Below are positions 56,215 to 64,000 of a stretch of DNA of 64,000 bases, in pieces; the first letter of the stretch is position 1; every line of letters begins with the position of its first letter. The translations under genes were made by a program, and so were the position numbers. The stretch is from Sedimenticola selenatireducens (GTDB lineage Bacteria; Pseudomonadota; Gammaproteobacteria; Chromatiales; Chromatiaceae), in NCBI RefSeq assembly GCF_007625115.1, contig NZ_VMNH01000023.1:186001-250000 (forward strand). Reading direction: 5' to 3'. The notes below the pieces were generated by a model that saw nothing but the letters and a program-made list of their open reading frames with translations, was not told the DNA's origin and searched no databases.

Positions 56215-56362
56215 GTAGGGTGGGCACGTCGGTTGTGCCCACGCGGATAAAACTGCATTCAACGAGCTATTGAACAAGGCTGTTACGATATCAGCGCATG
56301 AAAAACAGTGTAATGTGTAGATACTAACGACAGCGTGGGCACTAATAACGTGCCCACCCTAC
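56215..56362. repeat. GTAGGG repeat element, copy A
   Basis: 148 bp with perfect ends GTAGGGTGGGCAC / GTGCCCACCCTAC. Each end is itself a hairpin (GTGGGCAC...GTGCCCAC). Same length as copy B and about 80 percent alike by eye. No coding capacity. Confidence 0.85.
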
Positions 56363-56370
56363 GCGTGTTA

Positions 56371-56415
56371 TTAGGTAGCTAATGCAGGCGCCCCATCAAA
56401 CGCCTCTGCAAATCA
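56371..56415 (-). pseudogene. 3' remnant of a paralogue of the Cache pseudo-kinase
   Basis: The minus strand reads AEAFDGAPALAT-stop, alike to the last residues AESFDGVPALAT of the gene at 57548, with mostly synonymous changes. It follows copy A just as that gene end follows copy B, so a whole repeat-plus-gene segment was duplicated and then lost. Confidence 0.6.
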
Positions 56416-56843: not shown

Positions 56844-57380
56844 ATGAGCCTTTCCAAATACAACAATCCCCAAGTGGCGCTTCACTGGCTGACAGCTGCA
56901 ACCATCAGCTTCCTGCTGGTCACTGGTACTTTCATCCTGAGTCATATCGACAATACGGACCCGACCAAAATAAACAATCTGAAAATACATATGATTGTGG
57001 GTGGTCTGGCGCTTGTGTTAACACTGGCGCGGATCTTCTGGAGAGCCCGGTCACCACAACCGGAAGTGCTGGACAACTCCGGTTCTCTTATGGCCAAAGC
57101 AGGAACCGCCGCCCATTACGTGCTGAATATGATGGCACTCGTTATTGCAATCAGCGGGGTGGGGCTGGCCTTGCTTTCCGGCCTGCCTGAGGTAGTCTTC
57201 TTCGGCCAGGGAGTCCTTCCTGAAAGCTTCTTCGATTATATACCTCGATATGTTCATGGCATCTCCACCAAGATCATGCTGGGACTAGTCGCGTTGCACA
57301 TCCTGGCCGCGTTCTATCATGCCGTGGTAATCAAGGATTCACCGTTCCGCCGAATGTGGTTCGGTCGGCAGAATGCCTGA
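56844..57380 (+). CDS. Cytochrome b561-type membrane protein
   Basis: A 178-residue protein with four spans and conserved His residues (VALHWLTAATISFLLV, LKIHMIVGGLALVLTLARI, AHYVLNMMALVIAISG, VALHILAAFYHAVVIKD). Diheme cytochrome b561 family; moves electrons across the inner membrane from quinol. Confidence 0.9.
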   Translation: MSLSKYNNPQVALHWLTAATISFLLVTGTFILSHIDNTDPTKINNLKIHMIVGGLALVLTLARIFWRARSPQPEVLDNSGSLMAKAGTAAHYVLNMMALVIAISGVGLALLSGLPEVVFFGQGVLPESFFDYIPRYVHGISTKIMLGLVALHILAAFYHAVVIKDSPFRRMWFGRQNA

Positions 57381-57391
57381 CTCAAAGCCAA

Positions 57392-57539
57392 GTAGGGTGG
57401 ACACCTCGTTTGTGCCCACGCGGATAAAACTGCATTCAACGAGACGCTGAACAAGGGTGTTTAGATATCGGTGCAAGAAAAACAGTGTAATGTGTAGATA
57501 ACAACGACAGCGTGGGCACAAAAAATGTGCCCACCCTAC
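57392..57539. repeat. GTAGGG repeat element, copy B
   Basis: 148 bp, homologous to copy A along its whole length (shared inner text such as AAAACTGCATTCAACGAG and AACAGTGTAATGTGTAGATA). One base differs in the left end (GTGGACAC). Confidence 0.85.
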
Positions 57540-57547
57540 GCGTTTTA

Positions 57548-58942
57548 TCAGGTTGCCAAGGCAGGCACACCATCAAACGACTCCGCATTGAAATCGACCT
57601 TGATCTTTAACAGCGTGCCGGTTCCCTTGGTACCGAACACAGACACTTCTCCGCTAATCCCTTCTACACGGGAGATCACGGTATTCAGCAGCATCTCAGC
57701 CATATCAGAGCTACCTTTACTATTGGATTTTGGATCAAACCCAACCATATCTTCAAGCAGTGAAATCTGTACAGACTCTTCAGAGAAAGTGGTACGTACA
57801 ACGACCTTGCCCTCGCCTTCACTCTGCTCTACAAAGCGCATGACATCCTGTATCACACGATACAGTTCCCACTCTACGCCTTTAGGTAGACGCTGGGTCA
57901 GCAAACCTTGCTGATAAAGTTTGACCGGCACTCTACCCCGATCATTGTACTGCTTGCACAATATATCCAAACCATAGGATAACCCGTGCTCTTCAAGACT
58001 CTTGGGGTTGAGCGTATGAGATATCTGCTGAATCGCTTTTACGGCCTTACCCATTTCATGGTTTAGTAAGTTTACGACTTCATCACTTACGCCTTTATCC
58101 ACCATCAGATCAGGCAATCGATTTTTCAGACCAACCAGATGCTCTTCAACACTGTCTTCAATCTCAGCCGCAATTGCTTGTCGCTCATGTTCTTGCGCCC
58201 GGTTGACCTGATCAGAGAGTGCTTTCAGTTTATGATCCGCGCTATCGCCTTCCCGTAACGTCAGACGACCAAACAACAGCGCGGCAAACAGCAGTGAGCC
58301 ACCGGACAGCCCGAGGAAAACCAAAGTACTTTGGCTCAGATTACTATCCAACTCTTGATTCAACTTGGTGTGTACTGCATCAATATCATCGGTGTAGAGA
58401 CCCGTACCAATAATCCAGTCCCACTTAGGTAATGTCTTGACATAACTGACCTTACCCACTGGGTCAGGGAATCCTGGTTTATCCCACATGTATTCGGTAA
58501 AACCGGTTCCATCCTTTGCCGCCTGATCAATATCACGAATCAGGAACTTATTATCTTTGCTTTTCAGATCCCACAGATTACGCCCTTCCAAGGCGGGCTT
58601 GGCACCATGAACCAGTGTATTCCCGTTATAGTCATTGACGAAGAAATAACCACTGGGGCCATAACTCAACTTACGAATGATTCCCTTGGCCTCTTCCTGG
58701 GCCTGTTGTGGCGCCTGAATAGAATTATTGTAGTGGGCATCGATGGCAGACTCAGCCAAATTGGTGTAGCTATGCAATTCATTGCGTCGCAGCGTCAACA
58801 TTTGATCACGGAATGTCGCGTTATTAAGCTCCCCGAAATTCCGGGTTTCATAGATGGCAAAGCTCGATATGGCAATGCTCACCAACAGCGTTGGCAACAT
58901 AGCCAGAAGCATCATGCGGTATTTCAATGAAATGGTTTTCAC
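57548..58942 (-). CDS. Cache-domain pseudo-histidine kinase
   Basis: GTG 58942 is chosen because AGGAGGAGA is directly upstream; 464 residues. One span at each side of a single Cache domain (GPSGYFFVNDYNGNTLVHGAKPALEGRNLWDLKS ... PKWDWIIGTGLYTDDI). The cytoplasmic part is NarX-like but the dimerisation motif reads ERQAIAAEIEDSVEE, with Glu where His is phosphorylated, and the ATPase N-box lacks its Asn (QDVMRFVEQ). Probably binds a ligand and regulates by contact. Confidence 0.85.
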   Translation of the reverse strand: MKTISLKYRMMLLAMLPTLLVSIAISSFAIYETRNFGELNNATFRDQMLTLRRNELHSYTNLAESAIDAHYNNSIQAPQQAQEEAKGIIRKLSYGPSGYFFVNDYNGNTLVHGAKPALEGRNLWDLKSKDNKFLIRDIDQAAKDGTGFTEYMWDKPGFPDPVGKVSYVKTLPKWDWIIGTGLYTDDIDAVHTKLNQELDSNLSQSTLVFLGLSGGSLLFAALLFGRLTLREGDSADHKLKALSDQVNRAQEHERQAIAAEIEDSVEEHLVGLKNRLPDLMVDKGVSDEVVNLLNHEMGKAVKAIQQISHTLNPKSLEEHGLSYGLDILCKQYNDRGRVPVKLYQQGLLTQRLPKGVEWELYRVIQDVMRFVEQSEGEGKVVVRTTFSEESVQISLLEDMVGFDPKSNSKGSSDMAEMLLNTVISRVEGISGEVSVFGTKGTGTLLKIKVDFNAESFDGVPALAT

Positions 58943-59105
58943 TCTCTCCTCCTTTAATTTATTATCAAGTAGATCCCCAACCCTAAGCATAGAAGCCGCA
59001 TTTTTTCGATTACAGTTTATTTCTCTATTTTTCGTTATCTGTATCACGTTTTACGCCTGATATTTCGCACAAAACCACTATTTGTTTCTTTTGTAACCAT
59101 TTGGT

Positions 59106-59135
59106 AAAAAAAAAGGGTGCCATTTAAAGGCACCC
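59106..59135 (-). terminator. Terminator of the benzoyl-CoA/glutaryl-CoA operon
   Basis: GGGTGCC and GGCACCC pair around a 7-base loop; on the minus strand a run of nine T follows. A second, larger imperfect hairpin (59162-59197) lies between it and the gcdH stop. Confidence 0.88.
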
Positions 59136-59221
59136 AAAGAGAGAATAGGAGAATACGATGAAGGTGCTATTTCACCCGATGCATAGGGCGAAATAACACC
59201 TGAGGGATTTTCTAAAGCAGA

Positions 59222-60421
59222 CTATGGCGCAAACGCCTGAATACCCGTCTGGGCACGACCAAGGATCAACGCATGCACATCATGCGTTCCTTCATAGGTG
59301 TTAACCGCTTCCAGATTCATGGCATGGCGAATTACATGGAACTCATCGGAAACACCATTACCACCATGCATATCACGTGCAATGCGCGCAATATCCAACG
59401 CCTTGCCTGCATTGTTACGCTTCATCATGGAGATTGCCTCTGGAGCGGCATTTCCTTGATCAAACAATCGTCCAAGTTGCAGACAGCCCTGTAACCCCAG
59501 GGTTATTTCTGTCTGCATATTGGCCAGTTTCAATTGAATAAGCTGATTGGCTGCCAGTGGCCGGCCAAACTGCTTACGATCGAGTGTGTAGTTGAGTGCG
59601 CGATGCCAACAATCTTCAGCAGCTCCCAGTACACCCCAGGCAATGCCGTAGCGCGCACGATTGAGACAGCCAAATGGGCCAGACAGTCCTTTCACATTCG
59701 GCAACAAATTTTCGGCAGGAACAAACACCTCATCCATCACGATCTCGCCCGTAATAGAGGCACGCAGTGAGAACTTGCCTTCAATCTTCGGTGCGGAGAG
59801 TCCCTTCATACCCTTTTCCAGGATAAATCCGCGAATAACCCCTTCGTCATCCTTTGCCCAGACAACAAAGACATCCGCAATCGGCGAGTTGGTGATCCAC
59901 ATCTTTGAACCAGAAAGCGAATAACCACCTTCCACCGTTCTGGCACGCGTCTTCATGCCGGCAGGATCCGAGCCATGATCGGGTTCAGTTAAACCAAAAC
60001 AACCGACCAATTCACCCGTCGCCAGCTTTGGTAGATATTTTTGCCGATGCTCTTCTGTTCCATAGGCATAGATGGGATGCATCACAAGGCTGGACTGCAC
60101 ACTCATCGCAGAGCGATAACCTGAATCAACGCGCTCCACTTCACGGGCAATCAACCCGTAGGAGACATAATTGAGACCCGCACAGTCGTAACCATCAATA
60201 GTACATCCGAGCAAACCCAACTCACCCATCTCGTTCATGATCTCACGATCAAAATGCTCATGGCGATTGGCTTCAAGCACACGAGGCATCAACTGTTCCT
60301 GACAGTATTTCTGCGCTGTGTCCCGCACCATCCGCTCTTCTTCCGTAAGCTGCTGATCAAGCAGCAGTGGATCTTCCCACTTGAATGGGGCTCTTGCCTG
60401 GGTTTTTGAATTCATAGCCAC
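59222..60421 (-). CDS. gcdH: Glutaryl-CoA dehydrogenase
   Basis: A 399-residue acyl-CoA dehydrogenase. [18 protein letters not shown] flavin region and the C-terminal [17 protein letters not shown] with the catalytic Glu typical of glutaryl-CoA rather than short-chain enzymes. Converts glutaryl-CoA to crotonyl-CoA, the late step of anaerobic aromatic degradation. Confidence 0.93.
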
Positions 60422-60500
60422 TCTTCCGGTTATCTGAGAATGGTGGATGCGCTGCGCTTATCCACCCTGCGTCTCTATCAATTGTAATTAGGACCATCGC

Positions 60501-60582
60501 GTAGGGTGGGCACGTCGTCCGTGCCCACCACTTTGTCCCGTGCCGTACCTTCCGCGTGGGCATAAAAACGTGCCCACCCTAC
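60501..60582. repeat. GTAGGG repeat element, short copy C
   Basis: 82 bp with perfect ends GTAGGGTGGGCACG / CGTGCCCACCCTAC; the central part of the 148-bp form is missing. Lies between gcdH and the reductase gene within the operon. Confidence 0.8.
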
Positions 60583-60586
60583 CGAG

Positions 60587-61294
60587 CTAAATATACTGAC
60601 CGCTATCTACCTTGATGATTTCACCGGTAATCATACGCGCCGCATCGGATAACAGGAACAGTACGGCGTTGGCAATATCTTCTGGTGTCGCCAACTCTTT
60701 TAATACTGTCTCGTCCAGTGCCTTTTGCAGATACTCTTCCGGTAGTTTCTTAGCCATCTCAGTAAGCACCATACCCGGTGCAACGGCATTAACGGTCACG
60801 CCCTTACTGCCTAGTTCACGGGCGGCCGTTTTGGTGAGGCCAATCATTCCCGCCTTGGCCGCACTGTAATTAGCCTGGCCAAACTTACCCCGCATGCCAT
60901 TGATCGAGGTGATGTTAACAATACGTCCATAGCCCTGCTCTCGCATGCGCGGAGCCAATGCCCGGATCAGATAAAAGGCACCACCCAGATTGATATTGAT
61001 AACAGAACTCCACTCGTCATCACTCATCTTGGCAATGCTTTTGTCGCGTGTAATACCGGCGTTATTCACCAGCAAGGTCACGTCGTCCGCGAGTTCATCT
61101 ACCGCTGCCTGCACACTCGCCGGGTCACCGATATTAACTTGATGAAATATTCCTGGAAGCGTGTCCGCATCACCAATGGTCAAGTCAAAAATATGTACTT
61201 CCGCGCCTGCCTGCTGGAGCATTTCGGCCACGGTACGACCAATACCACTGGCACCCCCTGTGACGATTGCTTTTCGACCTGTAAAATCCCACAT
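60587..61294 (-). CDS. Short-chain dehydrogenase (acetoacetyl-CoA reductase / beta-ketoacyl reductase type)
   Basis: A 235-residue SDR: TGGASGIG cofactor loop, NNAG, and catalytic Ser-Tyr-Lys in ITSINGMRG ... YSAAK. GITRD and LGGAF resemble PhaB/FabG. In this operon it may act on 3-hydroxyacyl-CoA intermediates. Confidence 0.9.
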   Translation of the reverse strand: MWDFTGRKAIVTGGASGIGRTVAEMLQQAGAEVHIFDLTIGDADTLPGIFHQVNIGDPASVQAAVDELADDVTLLVNNAGITRDKSIAKMSDDEWSSVININLGGAFYLIRALAPRMREQGYGRIVNITSINGMRGKFGQANYSAAKAGMIGLTKTAARELGSKGVTVNAVAPGMVLTEMAKKLPEEYLQKALDETVLKELATPEDIANAVLFLLSDAARMITGEIIKVDSGQYI

Positions 61295-61304
61295 AGATGC
61301 AACC

Positions 61305-62219
61305 TCAAAGCGCGCAGGAGAGCGATAATTCCTGGGCGGGCCGGAAACCTGAACTGGCCAAGAAACGGTTCAGATCAAAATTTTCCCACTCCACCTCAGT
61401 GCGTACATTTTCTACTTGCAGTGAGGCCAGATTGTCCATGAGTTGAGCCATCAGAGCAGAACCGATACCACTGCCCTTGTATTCTGGCCCTACACCCAAG
61501 GTATCCACTACAGCGGTAGAGTCAGCGCGACCAAAACTGCCGTAATCTACGCGTGCCATGATGAAGCCAGCAACCATTCCATCCTGCTCTGCAACCATTG
61601 AAACACGAATACCTGAGTCGGAGATCACCTCTGACACTTTTTGCTGAAGATAGTCACTGCGGTCTTCATTGGTGATGTGCTTATCAATTCGGCGAATGGA
61701 ATTGAGGTCTGATTCGGCCAGTGAGCGTACTGGGCGAAGACCAATATCATCATCTTCATCAAGTGCCAGCGGACTGGTATCACGAGTTAACACGTTACGC
61801 GCGGCCAAAGCAAAGCCGGCATTGGAAAAATAGGCCAACAGTTCTTGCTGATGCCAGTTTGCTTGTGTCTGCAGCGTGCCACAACCCCGCTTTTTGGCCT
61901 CATCTTTCAGTGCATTCATTAACATCATTCCAACACCTGAACCCTGCTCCCCGGGCTGCACACCCAAGGCATCAATAACCGCGACAGGCTGATGTGTACC
62001 AAACTCACCTTTAAGAACATGCGCACAGAGGAACCCGCAAACCTGTCCCTTTATACTTGCGACATAACTGATGTAAGTTTCCGGTGAACGACTCATCGCC
62101 TGCAATCGCTTATTAAAAAACTCCGGGCGCGGACTACCACCCAAATTCTTATCCAACGCAATCACCTGGTCTATATCACTTTCCTGTAATTGCTGGATCT
62201 GGCATTTTTTTTCTGACAT
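61305..62219 (-). CDS. Tandem GNAT acetyltransferase
   Basis: ATG 62219 follows GGAGGT eight bases upstream; 304 residues. Two GNAT domains (about 5-150 and 160-304), each with an acetyl-CoA loop (GEQGSGVGMMLM; GPEYKGSGIGSALM). Commonly seen near benzoyl-CoA reductase genes; might acetylate enzymes of the pathway (inference). Confidence 0.88.
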   Translation of the reverse strand: MSEKKCQIQQLQESDIDQVIALDKNLGGSPRPEFFNKRLQAMSRSPETYISYVASIKGQVCGFLCAHVLKGEFGTHQPVAVIDALGVQPGEQGSGVGMMLMNALKDEAKKRGCGTLQTQANWHQQELLAYFSNAGFALAARNVLTRDTSPLALDEDDDIGLRPVRSLAESDLNSIRRIDKHITNEDRSDYLQQKVSEVISDSGIRVSMVAEQDGMVAGFIMARVDYGSFGRADSTAVVDTLGVGPEYKGSGIGSALMAQLMDNLASLQVENVRTEVEWENFDLNRFLASSGFRPAQELSLSCAL

Positions 62220-62365
62220 CGCAACCCACCTCCGGGTAATTTGTTTGGCTTTACTAATGCGCAACCACGCAATTTAGTCAGCACGCTAGGCGAAAGGATT
62301 CACCGCAAGGCATCATTATCATAAAGCCCTGCAACAAAGTGAACCGCTACTCGTTGATCGTTAAC

Positions 62366-62608
62366 TCAATGTAACGAATCGTACTTCGCCAATAATTGCT
62401 CTTCAGTCTCTTCGAAATCCGGATTGGGTACGATGCAGTCTGGCGGACAGACCAGCTGACATTGGGGCTCATCTTCTGCACCCACACACTCTGTACACTT
62501 GAGCGGATCAATTACATAAATCTCTTCACCCTGGGTGATAGCCTCATTCGGGCACTCAGTCGGGCATGCGTCACAAGCCGTGCAGTCTTCATTGATCATA
62601 AGGGCCAT
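62366..62608 (-). CDS. 2[4Fe-4S] ferredoxin (Alvin type)
   Basis: An 80-residue ferredoxin: CTACDACPTEC and the extended CTECVGAEDEPQCQLVCPPDC. Feeds low-potential electrons to the ATP-dependent benzoyl-CoA reductase encoded beside it. Confidence 0.95.
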   Translation of the reverse strand: MALMINEDCTACDACPTECPNEAITQGEEIYVIDPLKCTECVGAEDEPQCQLVCPPDCIVPNPDFEETEEQLLAKYDSLH

Positions 62609-62675
62609 AACATTTTCTCCTTACTCAATCTTCAATAGGTCGTCTACCGACGTCAATAATAAGAGGTAAACTGGG

Positions 62676-63521
62676 TTAAGAGGCCTTGGCCAAATCACTG
62701 CCCTGTGCTGCCAATTTGTCATAGCGGTATGCGCCCCATATCGCTGCACCAATGGCACCACCATAGGGTGAGTCTGGATGGCTCACGGCCTTACCCTGCA
62801 CTTTCATTTTAACCATCGCTTCATTAATCGATGCGGTCAAACCTTCATCCAGTGCCAAACCGCCACTCAGGAAAGTAACCCCTTCGTTGGCTTTAATGAC
62901 GCGGAGAAGCTTCACCAGACGACCGGCCATGGAGTCATGAATGCCCTTAAGAATATTCGATGCAGAGATACCACGGGAAACCATGTTGATCACATCCGTC
63001 TCAGCCAATACTGCGCAGATACTGGAAACATCTTCTGGATTATCCGCTTTCTTGGAAAGCTCACCGATCTCATTCTGGGCAATACCCAGGTAGCGTGAAA
63101 TATTCTCCAGAAACTGTCCTGAGCCAGAGGCACACTGGCTCGTCATACGATAAGTCAGCACCTTGCCTTTCTCATCCATCTTAACGGCACGGCCATTCAA
63201 TGCCCCCATATCTAATACTGAACGTGATTCAGGATTTAGATAAATTGCACCACGACTGTGAGTCGTCATAGAATAGAAATGCCCCGTTGAAAAAGGAATA
63301 TTTTCTCCTTCACCGGTCGTAGCAATATAGTCGATATCCGCTTCCGTCAACCCAGCCTCTTCAATCACTTCATCGAAGGCACGTCTTGTCAGCTCCATTG
63401 GATCGCGTTGACGAATTTTGTCATTTCGACGGGCAACCCACTCAATCTGATCACCATTGACTTTGAACAATACGGTCTTGATACAACCGGTACCGACATC
63501 GATGCCTATAGTAGTAGTCAT
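62676..63521 (-). CDS. bcrD: Benzoyl-CoA reductase ATPase subunit, BcrD/BadG type
   Basis: A 281-residue BadF/BcrA-family ATPase: IGIDVGTGCIKTVLF phosphate loop, YIATTGEGENIPF and 4Fe-4S ligands CASGSGQFLE and CAVLAETD. With its partner it couples ATP hydrolysis to electron transfer for dearomatisation. Confidence 0.92.
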   Translation of the reverse strand: MTTTIGIDVGTGCIKTVLFKVNGDQIEWVARRNDKIRQRDPMELTRRAFDEVIEEAGLTEADIDYIATTGEGENIPFSTGHFYSMTTHSRGAIYLNPESRSVLDMGALNGRAVKMDEKGKVLTYRMTSQCASGSGQFLENISRYLGIAQNEIGELSKKADNPEDVSSICAVLAETDVINMVSRGISASNILKGIHDSMAGRLVKLLRVIKANEGVTFLSGGLALDEGLTASINEAMVKMKVQGKAVSHPDSPYGGAIGAAIWGAYRYDKLAAQGSDLAKAS

Positions 63522-63523
63522 GG

Positions 63524-64000
63524 TTAAGCCTCCTCAACGGCACGGCGGGCAAACTCTGCACCACCCAATGCACCGGTATAGATTGAATCAGGGTCAATAT
63601 TGATCTTCACGTCACCGTAGTTCTCTTTGACCAGCTCATGCAACTGCTTTACAGCCGCTTCATTTTTAGCCACACCACCGGTAAAGGTAAACTCATCGGT
63701 AATACCACCCGAGCGGGAGATAATCGACATGGCGCGTAAGATAATGGCGCGATGCAGTCCAGCCATAATGTTTTCACGCTTCTCACCCATGGCCAGACGA
63801 TCACGCAATTCCGCACCCGCAAACACCGTACAGGTAGAATTGATCCGCGTTGTCTTGGTTGCCTGCATGGCCATAGGACCGAGCTCGTGCAGACCCAGGT
63901 TCATTTCATCTGCGATGTAACCCAAATAGCGGCCGCAGCCGGCGGCACAGCGATCATTCATCTGGAAATTAACCACGATGCCTTTATCATCCACCTGAAT
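63524..64000 (-). CDS. bcrA: Benzoyl-CoA reductase ATPase subunit, BcrA/BadF type (5' end outside window)
   Basis: The last 158 codons of a BcrA-type subunit; the frame is open through the right edge. [10 protein letters not shown] and [12 protein letters not shown] hold the bridging 4Fe-4S cysteines, and [16 protein letters not shown] is the ATP-binding end. Two bp before bcrD. Confidence 0.9.

Follow-up and report, generated by a model that had tools for sequence, protein, structure and literature searches.

The psHK gene of Sedimenticola selenatireducens (named here for pseudo-histidine kinase) lies in the window, the 64,000-nucleotide stretch of DNA that was analysed. It probably encodes a pseudo-histidine kinase of long standing, whose role would be to detect a small carboxylate and to signal through contact with another protein. 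It is highly likely, judging from the comparison with its relatives, that catalysis has been lost from this protein while a function has been retained. The catalytic residues and the partner gene are gone, yet selection on the gene is strong in related species, which points to carboxylic-acid sensing and signalling through protein contact as the probable role. The features discussed are as follows.

57548..58942, minus strand: psHK, an open frame of 464 aa with a GTG start
58364..58795, minus strand: sCache_2 sensor domain (PF17200), residues 50-193, in which the carboxylate contacts Y99, H112, Y151, W153, and K164 are kept
57953..58192, minus strand: degenerate DHp region, residues 251-330 (bounds chosen from the alignment), with E262 for the acceptor His and E267 for the Gln of DxxxQ
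57587..57952, minus strand: degenerate ATP-binding (CA) region, residues 331-452 (bounds chosen from the alignment), with N-box F370, G1 D397E/G399M, and G2 G416E/G418L
58943..59221, minus strand: psHK 5′ region, with a terminator-like site (59135-59115) after the upstream acyl-CoA dehydrogenase gene, then conserved blocks and a ribosome-binding site
59222..60421, minus strand: acyl-CoA dehydrogenase gene, next to psHK on its upstream side wherever psHK is full-length (four genomes)

Loss of catalytic positions in the kinase-like module

A sequence-only reading of this DNA had described a membrane sensor of histidine-kinase form in which Glu replaces the acceptor His, the N-box Asn is missing, and the ATP site is degenerate, and all of this is borne out. 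There are two hydrophobic segments (19-residue hydropathy windows), starting near residues 8-13 and 205-209, an sCache_2 domain, and an MctS-related module. In the alignment to intact relatives, which that reading had proposed as a check, the phospho-acceptor His is replaced by Glu262 and the N-box Asn by Phe370 in all four full-length orthologues, whereas the acceptor is His in 15 out of 15 intact relatives. The ATP site has lost its N-box, G1, and G2 positions. Additional losses, beyond those listed in the reading, are in G1 (Asp397Glu and Gly399Met, which depart from the DxGxG for ATP-Mg binding), in G2 (Gly416Glu and Gly418Leu), and in DxxxQ, where Gln is replaced by Glu267 to give DxxxE in all four full-length orthologues. 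DxxxQ is described as the phosphatase motif of HisKA_3 kinases (PMC3510030).

The intact relatives were collected by searching 55 relatives, 210 genomes of the order, a sample of 369 genomes from the class, and a plasmid collection, in which 318 records matched (182 of them at 80 % cover or more) and six out of the 318 were examined. Fifteen are full-length: two from the same genus, two more from the same family, five more from the class, and six from plasmids. Acceptor His and N-box Asn are present in all 15, and the DxxxQ Gln in 14. There are 30 positions of the kinase part that are invariant in these relatives, 16 of which are kept in psHK, including Glu253, Asp263, Ser308, Pro313, Gly320, Arg362, Gln365, Gly401, Gly431, and Thr443. 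The 14 lost include His262, Asn370, His374, Asp397 and Gly399 of G1, and Gly416 and Gly418 of G2. Likewise, a survey of the kinase part in 52 rows from fetched loci, duplicates included, comprised 16 psHK rows and 36 others; among the latter, His is present in 35 out of 35 covering the acceptor site and Asn in 34 out of 35 covering the N-box, the one exception being a partial row of locus L026. The psHK substitutions are accordingly not a matter of chance.

Identity between psHK and its intact homologues is about 32 % or less. An order-wide search with MctS matched at least 203 of the 210 genomes, mostly through other kinases and Cache receptors, and 30 loci were fetched. Among the matches listed, none of the 210 genomes passed the 700-bit cut-off of the MctS model NF052443; an intact MctS-like kinase scored 506.7 bits. 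No relative was found among 93 pattern matches in viral contigs.

No HisKA_3 (PF07730) or HATPase domain was found in psHK in Pfam up to E 1, only Cache-type domains. The kinase form can be recognised solely from homology with MctS-like kinases along the full length (BLAST E 1e-71) and from weaker NCBIfam matches, the best of which is MctS (NF052443), spanning residues 5-450 at 270.9 bits against the 700-bit cut-off; LiaS, UhpB, and NarX also match, like MctS below their own cut-offs. The AlphaFold model (six-row alignment; mean pLDDT 43, pTM 0.30) was not used. A PDB search with a profile of psHK orthologues only returned five rows, all Cache chains, and no kinase structure at E 0.1; the kinase structures VraS and DesK match the profile only once intact relatives are included. 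The kinase fold of psHK is thus a prediction from homology.

The alignment with MctS of the MctSR-MctP system of Rhizobium runs full-length through Cache, DHp, and CA, at 28 % identity to R. leguminosarum MctS, which consists of a Cache2 domain and a histidine kinase domain (PMC9100948). In contrast to MctS, psHK has no acceptor His, DxxxQ Gln, N-box Asn, or G1/G2 residues and no adjacent regulator or transporter, and it falls well below the score of the model. Its nearest intact relatives are the MctS-like kinases of two Sedimenticola genomes (G001 and G006), with 31-32 % identity over 445 aa; these stand beside DctM TRAP transporters and differ from psHK in having intact catalytic residues and adjacent DctM-like and response-regulator genes. 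In the family tree psHK forms a long branch. It most likely descends from MctS-type sensor kinases or shares their ancestor.

Sensor domain and predicted ligand

The sCache_2 match (PF17200) has a score of 126.7 bits (E 9.7e-37), passing the Pfam gathering score of 25 bits. In PscD, Tyr90, His103, Tyr143, and Lys156 bind the carboxylate, with Tyr90, His103, and Lys156 critical for it, and Trp92, Trp145, and Phe126 line the pocket (PMC5062169). Positions were matched on alignments, and the three critical residues are kept as Y99, H112, and K164 in all four orthologues. Overall, five out of seven PscD ligand contacts are kept in psHK (Tyr99, His112, Tyr151, Trp153, and Lys164). The other two, Trp92 and Phe126, are replaced by Phe101 and Arg136, and the ligand may therefore differ; Arg136 is also present in several intact relatives. 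Of 21 Cache positions invariant in the 15 intact relatives, psHK keeps 14.

Position 103 is Tyr in all 15 intact relatives and aligns with Tyr70 of 4EXO, which contacts the pyruvate carbonyl (PMC5062169); in psHK it is Asn, as in PscD. The reported affinities of PscD are 23 µM for glycolate, 31 µM for acetate, and 356 µM for pyruvate, so that pyruvate is bound more weakly (PMC5062169). From these residues we infer that the psHK Cache domain would still bind a small carboxylate and would no longer favour pyruvate. Carboxylate sensing by psHK is, on this basis, the better-supported expectation.

Distribution and selection in Sedimenticola

Full-length orthologues are present in four Sedimenticola genomes (G000, G008, G007, and G004), are 87-96 % identical, and contain no stops. 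E262, E267, F370, and the G1/G2 losses are common to all four. Sequencing error or frameshift is ruled out as the cause, as the residues are identical in four separate assemblies. The nearest loci in named assemblies are in Sedimenticola metagenome-assembled genomes (MAGs), at 95, 90, and 87 % identity. A fifth genome, G005, has a C-terminal fragment of 111 aa (73 % identity) that shares the N-box and G1 losses. This fragment is followed by ankyrin-like and LysR-like frames (named by eye; L034 1-4654) instead of mobA, therefore the locus is arranged differently in G005.

The gene is absent from four of the nine Sedimenticola genomes (G002, G001, G006, and G003); orthologues are few, and three of the five carriers are drafts with a completeness of 65 to 90 %. 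The acyl-CoA dehydrogenase gene adjoins mobA directly in G002 and G003, and a psHK remnant is ruled out there, since the gaps of 336 bp and 56 bp give only DNA matches of 10-18 bases with E about 0.1 or worse. For G001 and G006, the stretches compared show no mobA match after the acyl-CoA dehydrogenase gene. A tree of the neighbouring-gene proteins, unrooted and with partial data for some genomes, places the four psHK-less genomes together (support 97) with G005 beside them (support 100). The distribution would be explained by one loss in this group, or by one gain outside it if the root is on that branch; transfer may also have contributed.

Selection was estimated as dN/dS by NG86 counts. 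Most of the wider pairs have a saturated or undefined dS, so that reliance is placed on the pair G000-G008 and on the pN/pS contrast. For this pair, psHK has a dN/dS of 0.038 for the whole gene, 0.032 for the Cache domain, 0.042 for DHp, and 0.046 for CA, with 23.5 non-synonymous versus 127.5 synonymous changes. The two intact HisKA_3 kinases of the genome have whole-gene values of 0.034 and 0.036. The DHp-CA part of one of them, at 0.009, is tighter than the 0.042-0.046 of psHK, and that of the second is undefined due to saturated dS; the neighbouring acyl-CoA dehydrogenase gene is at 0.014. For G007-G004, the values are 0.014 for psHK (dS 3.1) and 0.028 for its CA region, compared with 0.038 and 0.020 for DHp-CA of the two intact kinases. 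Biopython YN00/NG86 gave a dN of 0.0225, a dS of 0.40, and a ratio of 0.056 for psHK in G000-G008, with several other pairs undefined. The dN/dS of psHK is near that of intact kinases, therefore the dead module is under strong constraint, in the range of working kinases but looser than the tightest.

It had been suggested in the sequence-only reading that homologues with intact His would mean local decay. Such homologues do exist, at about 32 % identity or less; however, they do not carry that meaning, as orthologues at 87-96 % identity share the loss, and local decay is ruled out by these shared losses together with the dN/dS values. By its kinase form, its lost acceptor His, and its retention across species under purifying selection, psHK can be classed as a pseudo-histidine kinase.

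The dS of psHK in G000-G008 (0.58) is well below that of the acyl-CoA dehydrogenase gene (1.39) and also below the values for the two intact kinases (1.39 and 3.05). This hints that lineages may have exchanged psHK recently.

Proposed mode of action and gene neighbourhood

In all 15 intact relatives a response-regulator gene is directly adjacent. A DctM-type TRAP gene is near six of them and an annotated mctP near three, with no match to either in the available stretch around the other six. An MctS-like gene in genome G174 (L097 4510-6460) is broken by in-frame stops, three of them in the matched part, and still has an adjacent regulator-like match; it was omitted from the counts of intact relatives. 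Around psHK, no MctR-, MctP-, or DctM-like match was found in the 64-kb window (tblastn, E 1e-8). On the 301,619-base contig, the nearest receiver-domain match ends at 155,828, 88 kb away, and the 56 kb between psHK and the opposite contig end contain none. The genome as a whole has 85 receiver matches and eight GerE loci. The most MctR-like of these (38 % identical) adjoins a uvrC-like frame, which suggests a UvrY/GacA regulator rather than MctR.

The intact HisKA_3 kinases of the genome, of 655 and 552 aa, have like-length counterparts (judged by frame length only) in four out of four and three out of four psHK-less genomes, respectively. Neither therefore stands out as a partner, and identification of a heterodimer partner by co-loss with psHK was rejected.

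On comparison with working kinases, the psHK module lacks the residues needed to coordinate ATP, to autophosphorylate, and to dephosphorylate a response regulator, and no regulator gene is nearby. In the proposed mechanism, the periplasmic Cache domain would bind a small carboxylate, with acetate, propionate, and glycolate as likelier candidates than pyruvate, and binding would shift the psHK helices across the membrane. The kinase-shaped module, as a homodimer or as a heterodimer with another kinase, would then change which protein it holds, tuning the partner without phosphotransfer. The sequence-only reading had likewise proposed a ligand-sensing pseudo-kinase controlling an unknown partner; joint catalytic loss in all four orthologues, strong selection, and the kept Cache pocket support the sensing pseudo-kinase, whereas the partner is still conjectural. 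For the output, a heterodimer or scaffold is an evenly balanced prospect. It is suggested only tentatively that psHK is a phosphorylation-free transmembrane switch, in which the regulator has gone, kinase and phosphatase residues have been removed, the pocket has been retuned from pyruvate to C2/C3 acids, and the module has become a ligand-gated platform for a protein other than a response regulator.

It is very improbable that psHK is instead a relic in decay, in which an MctS-type kinase, once deprived of transporter and regulator, would be degenerating. The missing catalytic residues and regulator gene, the absence from four of nine genomes of the genus, the long branch in the family tree, and the tighter conservation of DHp-CA in one intact kinase would all fit a relic, but the four full-length copies are open and stop-free with the same substitutions, the 5′ region and ribosome-binding site are conserved, and the dN/dS of 0.03-0.05 in Cache, DHp, and CA (G000-G008) is strong counter-evidence. 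Kinase-like folds are used without ATP in Spo0B and ChpT, and the DHp-like helices of psHK might take phosphate from an outside donor at a different His, such as His268 or His252. His237, His252, His268, and His319 of the cytoplasmic part are present in all four full-length orthologues; in the 15 intact relatives, His is never found at 237, 268, or 319 and only once at 252, hence a relocated phosphotransfer site is conceivable. His268 is one residue past the lost phosphatase Gln. It is, however, six residues off the acceptor site on a helix face not obviously shared and, with the regulator gene absent nearby, such relocation is very unlikely.

Sensing through a response regulator, in which the module would bind a host receiver protein and report or titrate it, has a precedent in DivL. 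psHK retains Asp263 beside the acceptor site as well as several structural residues of DHp, and the 85 receiver matches could supply a target; nevertheless there is no linked regulator gene, and none of the eight GerE loci holds a close relative of MctR, making this a less likely, though credible, mode of action.

The action of DivL, RcsD, and a ChrS pseudokinase demonstrates that dead kinases can act on signalling; ChrS presumably belongs to the NarL type. The acceptor His is replaced in both DivL of Caulobacter, by Tyr, and psHK, and DivL functions in vivo without kinase activity (PMC4211667). DivL is reported to have all of its N, G1, F, and G2 boxes in place and carries PAS sensors (PMC4211667), whereas psHK combines a Cache sensor with a module from which most nucleotide-binding positions are gone. 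RcsD is, like psHK, a membrane sensor with an inactive kinase domain, but has an Hpt domain that joins phosphotransfer (preprint PMC13317618), where psHK ends after the CA region. In C. glutamicum, the dead kinase ChrS_CA-fs still alters signalling, and heterodimers between the native kinases were seen and proposed as the route, although the truncated pseudokinase showed no two-hybrid interaction (PMC9491836). That protein arose by laboratory evolution and has kept its His with a frameshifted CA, unlike psHK, which is natural and common to several species.

Pseudo-histidine kinases are thus already known, and psHK is a more fully disarmed example, not a new class. DivL keeps part of the kinase machinery and RcsD adds Hpt, and both are in systems with known regulators. 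psHK has lost its regulator gene along with the acceptor and phosphatase positions and most of those for nucleotide binding, while selection on the kinase-like part is still in the range of working kinases, therefore it provides a clean natural test of the role of the kinase fold without phosphate. Only a few ligands are predicted, and assaying them would cost little. Among the titles listed in searches of the open-access PMC literature, none concerns the psHK gene or a Cache/MctS-type pseudo-histidine kinase.

The GTG start of psHK at 58942 is preceded by AAAGGAGG, a ribosome-binding site, and both site and start are kept in four genomes. The terminator-like site upstream (59135-59115) is a consensus match, and the minus strand of 58943..59221 yielded no promoter-like site. 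Based on the terminator-like site and its own conserved 5′ region, separate transcription of psHK from the acyl-CoA dehydrogenase gene is suggested. That gene, which we guess to encode glutaryl-CoA dehydrogenase, belongs to a minus-strand cluster upstream of psHK (59222-63994), partly conserved in the genus, of acyl-CoA dehydrogenase, short-chain dehydrogenase, double GNAT, ferredoxin-like, and BadF/BadG-type ATPase genes. By its gene content the cluster resembles one for anaerobic benzoyl-CoA metabolism.

On the other side, a cytochrome b561 gene (56844-57380, plus strand) between psHK and mobA is not there in G008, G007, or G004; its best matches in the other eight genomes of the genus are about 29-32 % identical. 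Direct repeats of 157 bp (57392-57548 and 56215-56371, 88 %) lie on either side of it. Next to the second repeat copy, 38 bp from the psHK 3′ end recur (56373-56410, 82 %), therefore the end of psHK was apparently duplicated by the insertion.
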